From Oscillospiraceae bacterium (GTDB lineage: Bacteria > Bacillota > Clostridia > Oscillospirales > Oscillospiraceae), in contig WQXY01000012.1 in NCBI GenBank assembly GCA_009781515.1, positions 1 through 59,158 of the forward strand: 59,158 nt of DNA, read 5' to 3'. The translations under genes and the position numbers were made by a program. Numbering within the stretch: position 1 is the first letter of the stretch; each line of letters starts with the position of its first letter. The notes beneath the pieces are model-generated. The model was not told the DNA's origin, did not search any database, and saw only the letters and a program-made list of their open reading frames with translations. This document shows, in pieces, positions 2,808 through 32,758 of the stretch.

Positions 2808-3182
2808 TTATGCCGATGACAACTTGTTTACTATTAATTGGTTTATTGATATTTCTTCCAACTGCGCTCTCGCTGCCAACTCTTGCTGCAACGTGGACGG
2901 CATTCTAACCAAAACTTTTGCATTACTTCTTTTGACTGATTTTGGTATTGGCGGGGGTATGTCATTTTTTAGATATAATTGAATATGTATAGCCATTTCT
3001 TCCACAAGAGCGTCATAAACCTCGTTCGGAGTGGCTCCGTCAACACAACAACCATCTAATTCAAGTATTTCTGCAAAAAAAGCATTATCCCCTGTCTCTC
3101 CTGTTGAGGTTATTATAACTTTATAAGGCATAGCCATGTATTCTTCAAGTGTGTAGATTTCTGCATTTTTTTTAACTGTCAT
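2808..3182 (-). CDS. HicB-family antitoxin-like protein
   Basis: 124 residues. The N-terminal half (about 18-75) has the HicB-like fold pattern: a YKVIIT strand, then FFAEILELDGCCVDGATPNE, then a helix (VYDALVEEMAIHIQLYL). The C-terminal segment (about 88-124, KVLVRMPSTLQQELAARAQ...SINQLIVNKL) reads as a ribbon-helix-helix DNA-binding unit, as in HicB antitoxins that repress their own promoter. Its start overlaps the stop of the upstream 71-residue gene by four bases (ATGA), which fits a translationally coupled toxin-antitoxin pair in the usual toxin-first hicA-hicB order. Family assignment is by pattern; function is inferred. Confidence 0.75.
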   Translation of the reverse strand: MTVKKNAEIYTLEEYMAMPYKVIITSTGETGDNAFFAEILELDGCCVDGATPNEVYDALVEEMAIHIQLYLKNDIPPPIPKSVKRSNAKVLVRMPSTLQQELAARAQLEEISINQLIVNKLSSA

Positions 3183-3394
3183 TTTATTTCACCCCGCTTA
3201 TGTTTAATTATTTTTTCTGATAATTGAATGAGCTTAAACCATTTTGCTCTCGATAGAACCCCGCTTTTAGGCACGCTGAAAGAGAAAACAGGATAATCTT
3301 TTTTGAAATAATATTCTTTGTCGTTGCTTAATATTTCGGTATCTTGCTCAGCTCCTAATTTTGTTAGCAGTTCGCGTGCTTTGTTACTGTCCAT
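3179..3394 (-). CDS. Small protein in the hicA position, possible toxin
   Basis: 71 residues, basic C-terminus (KIIKHKRGEIK). It lies directly upstream of the HicB-like gene and overlaps it by four bases, the place where hicA normally sits. It lacks the usual HicA GSHH motif. A weak HicA-like pattern can be seen: an N-terminal helix ARELLTKLGAE, then a strand pair around YYFKKDYPVFSFSVPKSGVL, then a C-terminal helix. The Shine-Dalgarno GAAAGGA lies about 7 bases before ATG. It could be a divergent HicA-like RNase or an unrelated protein; I do not recognise the family with confidence. Confidence 0.6.
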   Translation of the reverse strand: MDSNKARELLTKLGAEQDTEILSNDKEYYFKKDYPVFSFSVPKSGVLSRAKWFKLIQLSEKIIKHKRGEIK

Positions 3395-3426
3395 GAGTTG
3401 TTCCTTTCAACACTCATTGCCACATT

Positions 3427-8684: not shown

Positions 8685-8785
8685 CGTCATTGCGAGGAGC
8701 CATTTATGGCGACGTGGCAATCCAGACCACATAGTTACAATAAATGCATCATCTGGATCGCCACGCCTTACGGCTCGCGATGACG
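8685..8785. repeat. Palindromic repeat A, copy 1 (gene-less)
   Basis: Ends CGTCATTGCGAG and CTCGCGATGACG; inner pair GTGGCAATCCAG and CTGGATCGCCAC, one mismatch in each 12-bp pair. The left arm (8685-8725) is identical over 41 bp to copies at 10826 and 16760. Small hairpins lie inside the arms (GCCA-TTTA-TGGC; GCC-TTAC-GGC). The loop is about 27 bases and similar to those of copies 2 and 6. Confidence 0.92.
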
Positions 8786-8805: not shown

Positions 8806-8893
8806 AACCACCCCGGCGCTACGCGCCACCCTGTAGGGGACGATGTCTACATTGTCCCGCACCCCGTAGGGGCGACCGCCCTCGGTCGCCCGC
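8806..8893. repeat. Modular hairpin repeat B, copy 1
   Basis: Starts AACCACCCC and is identical over 34 bp (8806-8839) to 16705-16738. It is a chain of hairpins: GGCGC-TAC-GCGCC, then two GTAGGGG-led hairpins. The first pairs GGGACGATGT with ACATTGTCCC; the second pairs GGGCGACCG with CGGTCGCCC. No coding potential is seen. It fills the gap between the solute-binding and permease genes. Confidence 0.85.
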
Positions 8894-8910
8894 ATAGAAA
8901 GGTAACAATT

Positions 8911-10825: not shown

Positions 10826-10929
10826 CGTCATTGCGAGGAGCCATTTATGGCGACGTGGCAATCCAGACCACACAGTTACAAAAAGTGCATCATCTGGATC
10901 ACCGCGCTACTTCGTAGCTCGTGATGACG
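10826..10929. repeat. Palindromic repeat A, copy 2 (gene-less)
   Basis: Left arm 10826-10866 is identical to copies 1 and 4. The right arm ends CTCGTGATGACG and contains the hairpin GCTAC-TTC-GTAGC. Its loop closely resembles that of copy 1. It occupies the gap between the MalG-type permease and the NHL-repeat gene. Confidence 0.92.
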
Positions 10930-13063: not shown

Positions 13064-13183
13064 CGTCATTGCGAGAAGCCACAAAGTGGCAACGTGGCAA
13101 TCCAGCAATCAAATCATATACCCACATTATATATTTTAGTACAGTGTCTGGATCACCACGCTACTTCGTAGCTCGTGATGACG
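13064..13183. repeat. Palindromic repeat A, copy 3 (gene-less, longer loop)
   Basis: Ends CGTCATTGCGAG and CTCGTGATGACG; inner GTGGCAATCCAG and CTGGATCACCAC. The left internal hairpin is GCCAC-AAA-GTGGC instead of GCCA-TTTA-TGGC in copies 1, 2 and 4: a longer, still paired arm. The loop is AT-rich and unlike those of copies 1 and 2. Confidence 0.9.
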
Positions 13184-13205: not shown

Positions 13206-15794
13206 ATGAAGTTTACAACCAAGCTGATATTGTGGATAGTTGTCATCGGAGCTTTGATTGTGCTCTCTTATCAAGGCTATCTGACAGTACGCTACAGGCT
13301 GCATAACGGACACTTGGCAGTGCTCTCGGAGAAGGACCATGAGTCCGAAATAGGGTCGCCGTTTGCCGTGCCGCCGGGCGCTCCGACAGCTGACATTTCG
13401 GGAATGTCATATGTCACAGGAAATGATAAGCTTCGTTTATATATTGACGAAGAAACAGGAAATATAGCCTTATATGACCTGCGAAACAGCAGCACCATAT
13501 ACGCAGTGCACCCCGACATGAAAACAGACGAGTTTGCGTCGGACTTAAACAGAAGCCTGCTCCAATCTCAAATTACACTCAGCTACTTCACCCCGACAAG
13601 AATACCGGGAAGATTTAACAGCTTCGACCACGCAGTTTCCATGGGTCAGTTCAGACTTGAAAGCATTGCAGACGGCGTGCGCGTCATATATACAATAGGT
13701 GACATATCCAGCCCAACAGGAATTGTACCTGTATACATTACACTCGAGCGGCTGCAGTTTTTCTTGGGGCAGCTTGAGGGAACACGAGCATATTCAAGAA
13801 ATATGATGCGATATATAGAGTCCGATACAGCCCCCGGACATATGCAGCTTATCGACGCCGCCCGTACGGGAGCCGCAACGCTTCGTGAAATGAACGAAGT
13901 CTTTGCATCCGTCGGATACACAGCGGAGGATTTTGCCGCCGATATGGCAGGCTCGGGAGTTGAAGAAGCAGTACCGCTCCATTTTGTAGTGCCCTTGGAG
14001 TTTCGCTTAAATGACGACAGCCTTATCGTAAATGTAAACACAACGGACATTCGCGAATATGCGGGCGGACGTATTGATGAAATTCAACTGATGAGAGCCT
14101 TTGGAGCGGGTGGTATGAATGAAGATGGTTATCTCGTTGTGCCAAACGGCTCAGGTTCTCTCATATATTTTAATAATCGGAAAACCTATGCGGACGAATA
14201 TATGCAGTACATATACGGGCAAGACCCGATGCTCAGAGAATATGTTACCCTCGGCAATATCGAAGATGTGCGTATTCCGTTTTTCGGCATTGAAGCACCC
14301 GACCGCACCATTTTAGGTCGCGTCGAGGCAGGCGATACACAGGCATATCTTACAGCCGGAATATCGGAAAAGTTTAATTCGTTCAACTATATCTATACAG
14401 GCTTTACCCTTAGAGGAAGCTTGGCACTGACAATGTTCGGCATGACAGGAAATGAGTCCACACTTCCCGTTGTTGAGCGTGACCTTCCTGAGCTTGACCT
14501 CACAGTCAGATATACGATTTTGGAAAACAAAGGATATTCGGGCATGGCGGAGCGCGCACGTGAGCTTCTCATAGAAGAAGGCTCGCTGCAGGCTGACCTG
14601 CTCCCGCAAGACGATATCCCGTTTTATATGGACCTTGTCGGCAGTGTTATGGGTCAGAAATTCTTTGCAGGTATCCGCTACATGGGTCAAATCCCAATGA
14701 CAACATACGAACAAGCCGAGGAAATCATAGACGATTTGACTTCAAGCGGCGTGACACGTCAGGTTGTAAATTATGCAGGCTGGTTTAACCGTGGTTATTA
14801 CCATGACATACCTGACAAAATCAAGCCTGTGCGTCAGCTTGGCGCAGTCCGCGACCTTGAAGCGCTTGCAAGAAAAGTAGAGGCTGAAAACGGCAAGCTA
14901 TATTCCGACACGAGTATGCTCACCGTACCATGGAGCACACGAAGATATCGCTGGGATTTGGAGTCCACGAGATATTACGGCGGCGGAATGGTTGGCGGCT
15001 TTGGTCAAGTCAACCCGATAACCCTGTTTAACACATTCTCCGCAGGCTATCTTGAGGTTATGTATAATGCTATGAGCCCGAGATTTTTAACACGCTATAT
15101 GGACAGCTACATCAAAGCATTTGACAAGTATGACCTGACAGGCACATCACTTCGTGATATGGGAGGCTTTCTTGCATCTGACCGCAGACGTACGGGAATG
15201 ATACACCGTGAGGAAGCTAAAGAGGTTATACTTCACAACATGGAAAAACTCCACGACGAGGGCGACCCCCTGATGATTGCAGGCGGCAACATGTATGCGC
15301 TGCGCTTTGCAAGTGACCTTATCAACATGCCCCTTGCTCATAATACATTTTATGTTGTCGATGAAGAAATCCCGTTCTACCAAATGATAATCCACGGAAG
15401 GCTTGATTATGCGGGAATGCCGATAAATCTGTCAGCCGATTTTGACGAAGACGCACTTATTCTGCGGCTTGTCGAATACGGAGCCTCTCCGCATTTTGCA
15501 TTTACATACGAGAGTGCAAATGAAATGAAATACACGGGTCTGAACTGGAAATACAGCACAAAATATGATAACTGGAGCGATAAAGCCAAGGAAATTTATC
15601 ATGCAGTTAACGGTGCTTTGCAATATGTGTCCGGAGCGGAAATGACATCACATGAAATATTGCGCAGCGGACTGCGTTTGATTACATACAGTAACGGGGT
15701 TCAAATAGTAATAAACCGCTCAAATACAGAGCGTACATTAGACGGTGAGACCATACAGCCTGTTGGTTTCATCGTTCGGGGGGTGGCATCATGA
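13206..15794 (+). CDS. DUF5696-like large surface protein of the glycan locus
   Basis: 862 residues. One N-terminal membrane helix (about 7-27, LILWIVVIGALIVLSYQGYL), the rest predicted outside. The first half is beta-rich (KLRLYIDEETGNIALYDLRNSSTIYAV). The second half (about 440-820) alternates strands and helices like a glycoside-hydrolase barrel, with NYAGWFNRGYYHDIPDK, SDTSMLTVPWSTRRYRWD and YAGMPINLSADFDED. I associate this pattern with DUF5696 proteins found beside sugar ABC transporters in Paenibacillus and clostridia; that link is from memory. A polysaccharide-processing role is inferred. The stop overlaps the next start (ATGA). Confidence 0.75.
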   Translation: MKFTTKLILWIVVIGALIVLSYQGYLTVRYRLHNGHLAVLSEKDHESEIGSPFAVPPGAPTADISGMSYVTGNDKLRLYIDEETGNIALYDLRNSSTIYAVHPDMKTDEFASDLNRSLLQSQITLSYFTPTRIPGRFNSFDHAVSMGQFRLESIADGVRVIYTIGDISSPTGIVPVYITLERLQFFLGQLEGTRAYSRNMMRYIESDTAPGHMQLIDAARTGAATLREMNEVFASVGYTAEDFAADMAGSGVEEAVPLHFVVPLEFRLNDDSLIVNVNTTDIREYAGGRIDEIQLMRAFGAGGMNEDGYLVVPNGSGSLIYFNNRKTYADEYMQYIYGQDPMLREYVTLGNIEDVRIPFFGIEAPDRTILGRVEAGDTQAYLTAGISEKFNSFNYIYTGFTLRGSLALTMFGMTGNESTLPVVERDLPELDLTVRYTILENKGYSGMAERARELLIEEGSLQADLLPQDDIPFYMDLVGSVMGQKFFAGIRYMGQIPMTTYEQAEEIIDDLTSSGVTRQVVNYAGWFNRGYYHDIPDKIKPVRQLGAVRDLEALARKVEAENGKLYSDTSMLTVPWSTRRYRWDLESTRYYGGGMVGGFGQVNPITLFNTFSAGYLEVMYNAMSPRFLTRYMDSYIKAFDKYDLTGTSLRDMGGFLASDRRRTGMIHREEAKEVILHNMEKLHDEGDPLMIAGGNMYALRFASDLINMPLAHNTFYVVDEEIPFYQMIIHGRLDYAGMPINLSADFDEDALILRLVEYGASPHFAFTYESANEMKYTGLNWKYSTKYDNWSDKAKEIYHAVNGALQYVSGAEMTSHEILRSGLRLITYSNGVQIVINRSNTERTLDGETIQPVGFIVRGVAS

Positions 15795-16702
15795 AATTGT
15801 CACTATCAGGTAAAAAAGCAGTCGTCGGAATGATTTTTATTGCGCCGTTTGTGATTGGGTTTGTAGTGTTTATAGCATACGGTATATTCACAACAATCCG
15901 CATGAGCTTTTCCGATGTTATACTCGCAGGAGCAACTTCCGGTGTTGAACTCGTCTGGAACAACTTTGATAATTACATACAGGCATTTACAGTGCACCCG
16001 ACCTTCCCCGAGGTCTTTGGTACCTCAATATTAAACATGGTAATAGACGTGCCGCTCATTATTTTCTTCTCGCTCTTTATGGCACTTCTTATTAACCAAA
16101 AATTCAGAGGACGCACAATCGTCCGTGCAATATTCTTCCTGCCCGTTATCTTAGGAGCACCCGCAATATCCAACGCACTCCTGTCAGCCCGGGCAATGAT
16201 GGTTGGCGGCGTCAGCCCTGCATCTGCCGAGGTTATGGCATCGCTCGGCTCAAACTTAAATGTTGACGTAAATTATTATTTGGCAATGCTCGGGGATCTT
16301 GCAATCCCGCCGACACTTATAGGATATATCGTAGACGCGGTGCACAGAATAAACAACATCATAATAGCATCGGGCGTGCAAATTGTAATATTCCTCGCCG
16401 CTCTGCAGTCAATCCCGCCGTCGGTATATGAAGCGGCAAAAATCGAAGGGGCAACACCATATGAAACTTTCTGGCTGATAACATTCCCGATGGTATCGCC
16501 GCTCATACTGACTAATGTGGTCTACACAATAATTGACTCATTTGCAGTCAGTCCCGTAGTTACACTCTCTTACAGCACTATATTCTCGGATTATAACTAC
16601 GGACTTGGTTCTGTATTTAGTCTTGTCAGCTCTCTTGCAGTGTGTCTAATTCTCGTAGTCGTTGGACTTGTACTCGGCAAACGCTCATTCTATTATACAT
16701 AA
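15791..16702 (+). CDS. Sugar ABC transporter permease, MalF-type (second pair)
   Basis: 303 residues, six membrane helices beginning GMIFIAPFVIGFVVFIAYGI. The EAA loop is YEAAKIEGATPYETFWLITF. Its ATG overlaps the stop of the DUF5696-like gene by four bases, so the two are coupled. It pairs with the MalG-type permease at 17152, from which it has been separated by repeats A and B and the inserted nuclease gene. Confidence 0.9.
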   Translation: MKLSLSGKKAVVGMIFIAPFVIGFVVFIAYGIFTTIRMSFSDVILAGATSGVELVWNNFDNYIQAFTVHPTFPEVFGTSILNMVIDVPLIIFFSLFMALLINQKFRGRTIVRAIFFLPVILGAPAISNALLSARAMMVGGVSPASAEVMASLGSNLNVDVNYYLAMLGDLAIPPTLIGYIVDAVHRINNIIIASGVQIVIFLAALQSIPPSVYEAAKIEGATPYETFWLITFPMVSPLILTNVVYTIIDSFAVSPVVTLSYSTIFSDYNYGLGSVFSLVSSLAVCLILVVVGLVLGKRSFYYT

Positions 16703-16704
16703 AC

Positions 16705-16753
16705 AACCACCCCGGCGCTACGCGCCACCCTGTAGGGGCGGCAACCTGCCGCC
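16705..16753. repeat. Modular hairpin repeat B, copy 2
   Basis: Identical over 34 bp to copy 1 (AACCACCCC... to GTAGGGG), then one hairpin GGCGGCA-ACC-TGCCGCC in place of the two different hairpins of copy 1. The arms differ in sequence but remain complementary. It abuts repeat A copy 4. Confidence 0.85.
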
Positions 16754-16759
16754 AACCGC

Positions 16760-17133
16760 CGTCATTGCGAGGAGCCATTTATGGCGACGTGGCAATCCAG
16801 AAGAAAATTATGAAACAAGGTTATGTATATATATTATTTAATAAAAGAAACGGTACACTGTATGTTGGAGTAACATCAGATATAAAAAAACGTATATATG
16901 AACACAAAGAAAAATTAACTGAAGGATTTACAAATAAATATAACATTAACAAATTAGGTTACTATGAAATATTTAGCACGATGATAGATGCTATAGAAAG
17001 AGAAAAACAAATTAAGAAAAGTAATAGAAAGAAAAAACTATTTTTAATTGAAAGTATCAATCCTGAATGGGTAGACTTATATAACGAAATATTATGACTG
17101 GATTGCCACGCCACTACGTGGCTCGCAATGACG
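16760..17133 (+). mobile_element. Repeat A copy 4 carrying a GIY-YIG nuclease gene
   Basis: Left arm 16760-16800 and right arm 17098-17133 are the two halves of repeat A. Both pairs are perfect here: CGTCATTGCGAG with CTCGCAATGACG, and GTGGCAATCCAG with CTGGATTGCCAC, 12 of 12 each. The loop is replaced by an AT-rich nuclease gene whose TGA stop touches the right arm with no spacer. It lies between two permease genes. It is read as a small mobile or homing-type element; mobility itself is inference. Confidence 0.75.
16810..17097 (+). CDS. GIY-YIG endonuclease inside repeat A
   Basis: 95 residues from ATG at 16810, the first codon after the left arm. The GIY-YIG core is complete: YVYIL in strand 1, TLYVGVTSDIKKRIYEH with the YVG and Arg/His positions, and the metal-binding Glu in DAIEREKQIK, ending NPEWVDLYNEIL. 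This is the single-domain UPF0213/YhbQ-like group. Composition is strikingly A/T-rich (many AAA, ATA, TTA codons), unlike the transporter genes on either side, and there is no good Shine-Dalgarno, so it looks acquired. The gene ends flush with the right arm of the palindrome. The likely role is to cut DNA at the repeat or at target sites during movement; this is inferred. Confidence 0.88.
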   Translation: MKQGYVYILFNKRNGTLYVGVTSDIKKRIYEHKEKLTEGFTNKYNINKLGYYEIFSTMIDAIEREKQIKKSNRKKKLFLIESINPEWVDLYNEIL

Positions 17134-17151
17134 GAGATGTAGGTGTAAAAC

Positions 17152-18135
17152 ATGAACATAAAAGCGCGAATTGAACAAATGAAAAATGACCCGACGATTG
17201 CGAGCAAACGCGGACAAGCGGAGCGAAAGCTGCGGGCAGTAGTATTCGCACTTTTCCGTACTGCACTTGTGCTCGGAATATCTTATGTAATACTCAGCCC
17301 GCTTATCGGTATCCTTGCGAGCTCATTCTTTTCAACCGAAGACAGTTACAACCCGGTAGTTTACCTTATTCCGCAAAATCCGACACTTGAACGCTACGAA
17401 CTGACCATATTACGAATGGACTACTGGAACGTACTCGGCAACATGATGATTTATGTGCTCGGACTGACAGTTATACAGCTTTTGATATGCTCAATGGCAG
17501 GCTACGGCTTTGCCCGCTTCAACTTCCCGCTCAAAAAACTGCTGTTCGGCTGTGTAATAATCACTATTGTGCTGCCGTCGCATACGATAATGTTCCCGCT
17601 GTATACAACATTCCAAACATTTAATCCGTTTGGGATATTCGGGCTCTTTAACGACGGCAACAGCGTAAACCTGCTCGGCTCGCCATGGCCTGTGGTTATT
17701 ATGACCATTTTTGGCGTAGGGCTTCGCTCGGGGCTGTATATCTTTATCTTTAACCAATTTTTCAGAGGATTACCGAGAGAAATCGAAGAAGCTGCCTTTA
17801 TCGACGGAGCGGGCAGTGTTCGTACATATCTGCAAGTAATGCTGCCAAACGCGACCCCCGCAGTTGTTACGGTGACAATATTCTCAGTGGTATGGCAATA
17901 TAACGACAACTTCCTCGGCAGGCTCTTTAATGTAAGCGACAGCATACTACTCAGCCGCAGAATTGGCTCATTGCAGGCAACAATATCAAACATCGACCAA
18001 ATCCGCGACCCCTCAATCACCACATTATATGTATATGCAGGTGTAGTGCTGATGATACTGCCACTTCTTTTGATATATGTCTTTATGCAAAAACATTTAA
18101 TCGAAGGCATCGAAAGAAGCGGCATTGTCGGATAA
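17152..18135 (+). CDS. Sugar ABC transporter permease, MalG-type (second pair)
   Basis: 327 residues. Six membrane helices after a polar N-terminus of about 25 residues that repeats RIEQMKND. The EAA loop is EEAAFIDGAGSVRTYLQVML. Shine-Dalgarno TAGGTG is 7 bases before ATG. It should form the second import channel with the protein at 15791 and work with the solute-binding lipoprotein at 19299. It is 18 bases downstream of the nuclease-bearing element, so its expression may depend on read-through of the palindrome. Confidence 0.9.
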   Translation: MNIKARIEQMKNDPTIASKRGQAERKLRAVVFALFRTALVLGISYVILSPLIGILASSFFSTEDSYNPVVYLIPQNPTLERYELTILRMDYWNVLGNMMIYVLGLTVIQLLICSMAGYGFARFNFPLKKLLFGCVIITIVLPSHTIMFPLYTTFQTFNPFGIFGLFNDGNSVNLLGSPWPVVIMTIFGVGLRSGLYIFIFNQFFRGLPREIEEAAFIDGAGSVRTYLQVMLPNATPAVVTVTIFSVVWQYNDNFLGRLFNVSDSILLSRRIGSLQATISNIDQIRDPSITTLYVYAGVVLMILPLLLIYVFMQKHLIEGIERSGIVG

Positions 18136-22419: not shown

Positions 22420-22521
22420 CGTCATCGCGAGCGAAGCGTGGCGATCCAGACACTGTAACTGTAAGGTGCGGTTTAATTGCTGGATTACCACGTCGCCACT
22501 TAGTGGCTCCTCGTAATGACG
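22420..22521. repeat. Palindromic repeat A, copy 5 (inverted orientation)
   Basis: Ends CGTCATCGCGAG and CTCGTAATGACG; inner GTGGCGATCCAG and CTGGATTACCAC. The right arm carries GCCAC-TTA-GTGGC. Its right end overlaps the 3' end of rpiB and supplies the rpiB stop codon. Confidence 0.9.
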
Positions 22522-32659: not shown

Positions 32660-32758
32660 CGTCATCGCGAGCGTAGCGTGGCGATCCAGATGATGCACTT
32701 GTTGTAACCCTGTGGTTTAGATTGCCACGTCGCTACCTCGTAGCTCCTCGCAATGACG
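32660..32758. repeat. Palindromic repeat A, copy 6 (inverted orientation)
   Basis: Ends CGTCATCGCGAG and CTCGCAATGACG. The inner pair is GTGGCGATCCAG with a degraded partner (TTAGATTGCCAC). Right-arm hairpin GCTAC-CTC-GTAGC. Read in reverse, the loop resembles that of copies 1 and 2 (ACCACA...GTTACAA...TGCATCAT). Confidence 0.9.

Follow-up and report, generated by a model that had tools for sequence, protein, structure and literature searches.

A small GIY-YIG nuclease gene framed by inverted CGTC-tagged palindromes: a candidate mobile unit and a candidate partner for CGTC REPs

The window analysed here is a stretch of 59,158 nucleotides from an Oscillospiraceae bacterium (contig WQXY01000012.1 of assembly GCA_009781515.1). 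Between two genes for ABC permeases it holds a unit of 376 bp, positions 16759-17134, whose termini are one palindrome in two inverted copies and whose interior is a gene for a GIY-YIG nuclease (Table 1). The outer arms (16759-16771 and 17122-17134) and the inner arms (16788-16800 and 17098-17110) are 13 nt each and 100% complementary. The tag CGTC is found at 16760-16763 and, on the opposite strand, at 17130-17133, and both arms carry a CCAG tail. The stop codon of the gene, TGA, occupies 17095-17097, so that the right arm begins at the very next base. The gene is only 23.3% GC, compared with 44.4% and 45.5% for the two permease genes and 45.6% for the window. Both parts of the palindrome recur far beyond chance: the 12-nt outer motif, with at most one mismatch allowed, has 10 matches against 0.38 expected, and the 13-nt inner motif has 9 against 0.05.

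A first-pass annotation of this DNA had described an AT-rich gene of 95 codons lying exactly in the loop of a palindromic repeat, with its stop codon touching the right arm, a left arm matching gene-less copies over 41 bp, and an insertion point between two genes of one transporter operon. All of these statements are borne out, the 41 nt of the left arm being found exactly at 8685, 10826 and 16760. The same annotation gave the outer and inner inverted repeats as perfect over 12 bp; they are perfect over 13 nt, and the repeats reach one base further at either end (16759-17134). Its claim that no other copy has both pairs of repeats perfect is true, by eye, of the window's six dimers, but it does not extend to the genome: by eye, the outer stems match as well in at least one dimer, G000:C26:4196-4291, of the 31 that the 100 repeats listed out of 116 contain.

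Table 1. Positions of the unit, of the host genes on either side of it, and of the gene-less repeat dimers in the window.
Feature	Position	Strand	Remarks
Upstream ABC permease gene, in the host operon that the unit interrupts	15791..16702	+	Pfam BPD_transp_1
Left CGTC-tagged REP arm with inner hairpin	16759..16800	+	tag CGTC outward, tail CCAG towards the gene; 41 nt from 16760 identical to 8685 and 10826
Single-domain GIY-YIG nuclease gene, 95 aa	16810..17097	+	Pfam PF01541, E=4.3e-18; 23.3% GC
Right CGTC-tagged REP arm, in inverted orientation to the left one	17098..17134	-	starts straight after the stop codon
Downstream ABC permease gene (host operon)	17152..18135	+	Pfam BPD_transp_1
Gene-less REP dimer	8685..8785	.	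fold z=-5.6 as ssDNA; absent at the syntenic gap of G002
Gene-less REP dimer	10826..10929	.	no dimer in G002; the corresponding gap of G009 holds a ATTCTGCG-type dimer
Gene-less REP dimer	13064..13183	.	no dimer in G002; the corresponding gap of G009 holds a ATTCTGCG-type dimer
Gene-less REP dimer	22420..22521	.	repeat pattern and fold
Gene-less REP dimer	32660..32758	.	repeat pattern and fold

The arms follow the layout CGTC-ATTGC-variable-GCAAT-CCAG and belong to a large family. The pattern GTCATYRCGA..GYRATC has 116 copies in the genome, and its reversed control has none. In the 100 copies from which we drew our repeat statistics, complementarity at the two variable positions of the stem is kept without exception; four of the 16 allowed combinations are seen, namely TG/CA (54), CG/CG (34), CA/TG (8) and TA/TA (4). 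The inner segment takes 65 distinct sequences among 98, and in 53 of the 98 it can form at least four pairs with itself, as against 9.7% of shuffles. The same 100 repeats form 31 dimers with their tags outward (HH), the two pattern matches being 33 nt apart in 16 of them, and no dimer with tags inward (TT) within 150 nt; 38 repeats are left unpaired by this pattern. Folded as single-stranded DNA, the window's five gene-less dimers score well (z from -2.9 to -5.6), as palindromes must. The idea that the loops of these dimers are remnants of the gene was rejected, since by eye there is no resemblance. Another family of palindromic repeats (CACCCCGGCGCTACGCGCCACCCTGTAGGGG) adjoins CGTC dimers in the window, at 16705-16758 and at about 8815-8900, and a relative is present at the permease gap in G007 and G008.

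Palindromes of this general kind have been described before. The available part of the 2013 survey of CGTC-tagged REPs (Di Nocera, De Gregorio, Rocco 2013, PMC3733652) defines them by a tag CGTC or TGTC/CCTC, a stem opening with AT, a CCA tail, a stem of 8-9 bp and a loop of 4-5 bp. It describes four families, present in many copies and mainly as HH dimers with spacers mostly of 20-100 bp, and reports CGTC-type palindromes in five phyla. As far as that part of the survey goes, the elements have no dedicated transposase or associated enzyme gene, and what spreads them is left open (PMC3733652). The repeats of the window share with them, as portrayed there, the CGTC tag, the complementary AT start of the stem (ATTGC/GCAAT), the CCAG tail, the high copy number (116, with a control of 0) and the preference for HH over TT dimers (31 and 0); the range of spacer lengths and the occurrence in several phyla are common to both as well. 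They differ in having an outer stem of 5 bp and an inner part that varies in sequence and length. Since stem and loop are thus unlike the description, we would place the window's repeats, at best, in a family additional to the four of the survey. The arms of other homologues of the gene, for example ATTCCTGC..GCAGGAAT, do match a stem of 8-9 bp and a loop of 4-5 bp.

The central question is whether the gene and the palindromes belong together beyond this one locus. We scanned one genome per species, found 161 relatives of the protein and retained the best 80 loci, whose record titles span many phyla. Under a strict motif (GTC, a 6-nt stem with at most one mismatch, and a C[CT] tail), repeats with their tails inward lie on both sides of 44 of the 80 homologues, compared with 2 of 204 other open reading frames of the same loci and none of 1600 shuffled flank pairs. 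Fisher's test gives p=5.5e-27 for the first comparison, with loci treated as independent although the 80 include a few that are closely related. A motif match on some side and in some orientation accompanies 73 of the 80 homologues and 35 of the 204 other frames. The repeats face tails outward on both sides at 10 of the 80 loci, seven of which have no inward pair; thus their orientation is not fixed. At seven of the 80 homologues there is no motif at all, under a definition so strict that it misses some arms visible by eye (as at L051).

A second sample, drawn from the class of an alphaproteobacterial MAG, contains the protein in 68 of 240 genomes. Thirty loci were taken, two of them (L272 and L278) with misplaced frames but kept in the count, and 12 of the 30 have tail-inward repeats on both sides (p=1.6e-10) and 22 of the 30 have any repeat; one locus, L274, is L096 of the first set again, so that the new loci with both-sided tail-inward repeats number 11 of 29. 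The association is also specific to the subfamily. Among ten close loci, that of the window being one, seven have a tail-inward repeat on at least one side, as against 1 of 20 more distant GIY-YIG loci (27-38% identity, one of them from the window's own genome), a comparison that omits L026, a fragment, and five genome-scan matches without a locus. In the congener G009, and in G005, the right arm lies inside the gene, where it encodes DSATTRRMT near the C-terminus, the codons being read by hand. For the homologue of Rhizobium tumorigenes no flanking repeat was found, and a search for phage or viral contigs found none.

The arm type follows the enzyme type. Within a locus, the two arms are alike: they differ by 0.98 mismatches in an 8-nt core, compared with 2.96 +/- 0.17 when shuffled (n=50). 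Between loci, the arm cores follow the distance between the proteins (Mantel r=0.21 over 67 loci, with none of 5000 permutations as high and host kinship ignored). The congener G009 combines two repeat families, ATTGCGA with 36 copies and ATTCTGCG with 92, with a pair of GIY-YIG genes that share 67% and 52% identity with that of the window, and each gene is flanked by its own repeat family. The window's genome has 61 copies of ATTGCGA, none of ATTCTGCG, and one gene of the first kind; conversely, G005 has no copy of ATTGCGA, 8 of ATTCTGCG, and one gene of the second kind. Against this pairing, the ATTCTGCG family is present in G006 (39 copies) and G010 (26 copies), both of which have no match for the protein.

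Among 99 genomes including the window's, the subfamily is present in 6 of the 9 with at least 10 ATTGCGA repeats and in 4 of the 90 others (p=1.4e-5, phylogeny ignored and the gene fragments of G001 counted as absent). The three repeat-rich genomes that lack the gene are G002, G003 and G052, two of which are 97-98% complete. An alphaproteobacterium, G270, has ten GIY-YIG genes that are 44-68% identical to one another, seven of them with a motif match, and arms of several types, mostly with tails outward. In 400 kb of this genome, in stretches picked to include the GIY-YIG loci and hence no genome average, there are 15 perfect palindromes, 8 of which lie within 250 bp of seven of the genes; if one mismatch is allowed, 8 of 29 palindromes lie near such genes. 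The repeats of G270 are few, and we therefore rejected large REP populations as a rule.

It might be supposed that unrelated transposases move the palindromes and that the GIY-YIG gene was merely caught between two of them. Some copies do travel in other company. The genome G136 has five copies of the gene (L169-L173), found in a copy-number search of 49 of the 80 loci, and four of these lie inside an unrelated element of about 590 bp with terminal inverted repeats of its own; its ends are GCGYTAACTTAA-like, and 51 such ends occur in that genome, some pairs close together, so that the element perhaps belongs to a MITE family. Likewise, the copy in Rhizobium CIAT894 adjoins an IS4 transposase gene. 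Because four of the five G136 copies ride in an unrelated inverted-repeat element, we rejected copy number as proof of self-movement. As an account of the association, however, passive capture is highly improbable: a single gene subfamily recurs between such palindromes in many phyla, where other genes are seldom found (2 of 204), the arm type tracks the enzyme, and in G009 gene and repeat match two by two.

If the unit is mobile, related genomes ought to show the site without it. Eighteen congeners were searched; the orthologous permease is present in five, and no such unit precedes it in any of them. In the most similar congener, G002, the three other dimer sites examined (8685, 10826 and 13064) are empty as well. 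In G009, dimers of the other family occupy two of those three gaps, while a longer repeat of the ATTGCGA type fills the remaining one. The first-pass annotation had called the unit a candidate mobile element, and both the bordering of homologues by such arms and an empty site in relatives had been set beforehand as tests; with arms on both sides, tails inward, at 44 of the 80 homologues, a match of some kind at 73, and an empty site in all five congeners that have the permease, the claim is supported.

On plasmid AZO_p3 of Azospirillum lipoferum 4B (L337) a related gene lies between two complete REP dimers, between sufB and sufC of the suf operon. All 11 further Azospirillum records covering both flanks, at 84-95% identity, are shorter at this point by 494-605 bases, and the unit is absent from the four of them inspected in detail. 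Two deltaproteobacterial MAGs (L066 and L073) have in common a block, 84% identical over 390 nt, that runs from REP edge to REP edge and is surrounded by unrelated sequence. In Shinella the gene is absent, by eye, from two relatives, but divergence of the spacer keeps the junction from being placed, and for the Rhizobium CIAT894 locus the other records, among the matches listed, matched parts only. Neither in the congeners nor in Azospirillum, where the junctions lie in diverged spacers, did we see a movement event or a target-site duplication.

The gene lies exactly in the loop of a dimer, and over 41 nt its left arm has the same sequence as gene-less dimers. This also invites a second explanation, namely homing: the nuclease would cut dimers without the gene, which would then acquire it through repair templated by the dimer that carries it. 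GIY-YIG enzymes do occur as homing endonucleases of group I introns, and the protein has the same catalytic domain, although its match to that family (TIGR01453) is weak, 31.9 bits against a cut-off of 56.05; unlike those enzymes, the gene here consists of the domain alone and lies between palindromes that themselves lie between two protein genes. Against homing, both gene and dimer are missing from the syntenic site in relatives, and the genome contains one gene of the subfamily as against at least 31 gene-less dimers. We consider homing very unlikely.

The occurrence of the protein is patchy. Its best match is 73% identical and comes from a MAG titled Spirochaetes, compared with 67% for the best among the 18 congeners (the homologue list being the best 80 of 161). 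A protein match of any kind is found in 32 of 99 relatives and, as given above, in little more than a quarter of the alphaproteobacterial-class sample, and a tree of the protein, weakly resolved, mixes phyla.

The most serious of the three rival explanations draws on the Ssn proteins. These are site-specific, single-strand GIY-YIG nucleases, studied for transformation and cleavage, and the Neisseria homologue is reportedly tied to repeats of its genome as targets. They share with the protein of the window the GIY-YIG domain and the small size. The homologous frame of N. gonorrhoeae, which we take to be Ssn, is 56% identical to our protein over 98% of the query, and CGTCATTCCCGC repeats lie beside its gene. 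The available part of the 2013 survey assigns the Neisseria repeat dRS3 to its family CGTC-1 (PMC3733652), and this assignment and the CGTCATTCCCGC repeats beside the gonococcal homologue are mutually consistent. Proteins of the UPF0213 group (PDB 1zg2 and 1ywl) are similar to ours in domain sequence and length, but the matches are weak (E 0.0014 and 0.0091).

One may picture a resident nuclease, serving the host or itself, with a role in DNA uptake: it would cut its own repeats in incoming or exposed single strands, while the flanking repeats would mark or regulate the gene and would be spread by other means. The reported link of Neisseria Ssn to transformation and the gonococcal homologue with its adjacent repeats both speak for this explanation, as does the chemistry, for GIY-YIG enzymes hydrolyse DNA, form no covalent joining intermediate and so have no strand-joining step. 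Against it stand the empty sites, the different REP types in the same gaps of different species, the coincidence of the unit's borders with REP edges, and the patchy occurrence (32/99 and 68/240) with phyla mixed in the weakly resolved tree. On balance we find this explanation rather unlikely, while giving it the most weight among the rivals.

We favour instead the reading, to which we assign a probability of roughly 0.6, that 16759-17134 is a mobile unit of the form CGTC-REP, GIY-YIG nuclease, inverted CGTC-REP, and that the many gene-less dimers of the genome stand to it as REPINs stand to RAYT genes, as small relatives that are not autonomous. Because related genes in many phyla sit between palindromes of the same kind, the enzyme is a strong candidate partner, and its subfamily is the best candidate for the missing partner that spreads CGTC REPs. 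That the enzyme moves the repeats we infer from what was observed, that is, from the repeat family, the specific association of gene and repeat in many phyla, the match between arm and enzyme, and the empty sites.

The parallel with REP/RAYT systems, which the first-pass annotation had drawn while remarking on the different class of enzyme, is a good one, since most features of CGTC-tagged REPs are found in these repeats; the enzyme is GIY-YIG, not HUH. As far as the accounts of REP/RAYT and REPIN systems (GTAG REPs) available here describe them, both arrangements have a small enzyme gene flanked by the genome's own REP family, along with many gene-less dimers; the difference is that RAYT is an HUH tyrosine transposase. 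By analogy with RAYTs and with the Ssn nucleases, the nuclease may recognise the palindrome folded in single-stranded DNA, for example on the lagging strand, and may nick beside the tag. Two inverted palindromes might thereby free or expose the unit, and replication or host repair could then copy or join the unit, or a dimer, into a new site; the gene-less dimers would be moved in trans. Since no covalent joining intermediate is formed, the joining step would fall to host repair. More broadly, we see an even chance that CGTC REPs and this subfamily, as their missing partner, constitute a second system that mobilises REPs. It would be convergent with REP/RAYT, a hydrolytic nuclease taking the place of the transposase, and would extend over many phyla and many pairs of enzyme and palindrome, as in the genome with ten GIY-YIG genes, seven of them with a motif match, and several arm types.

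Several of the parts are already known: GIY-YIG proteins, CGTC REPs and, reportedly, Ssn nucleases acting on Neisseria repeats. The candidate novelty lies in a REP-plus-enzyme arrangement with a different class of enzyme, a GIY-YIG nuclease. Our literature searches, in which matches were judged by title and the opening of the abstract and most subscription papers were outside the scope, yielded among the matches listed none that links GIY-YIG genes to CGTC REPs. If the arrangement is what it appears to be, REP-like populations arose twice, with different chemistries. Furthermore, because a specific enzyme goes with matching types of repeat, the spread of CGTC palindromes becomes testable with one small protein and oligonucleotides, and many natural pairs of nuclease and hairpin, which may differ in specificity, are on offer.

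Some individual loci have features of their own. In a Caccopulliclostridium MAG (L060), the gene at 2501-2785 has flanking inverted repeats with a local score of 90.5 but no match to the CGTC motif. On a Shinella plasmid (L138, about 2900-3400), the long inverted repeats of the unit reach well past the REPs, with a local score of 75.5. Finally, on plasmid p1 of Planktothrix agardhii (L137), the GIY-YIG gene has a restriction-modification gene of type IIL (MmeI) on one side and drmA, a DISARM gene, on the other.
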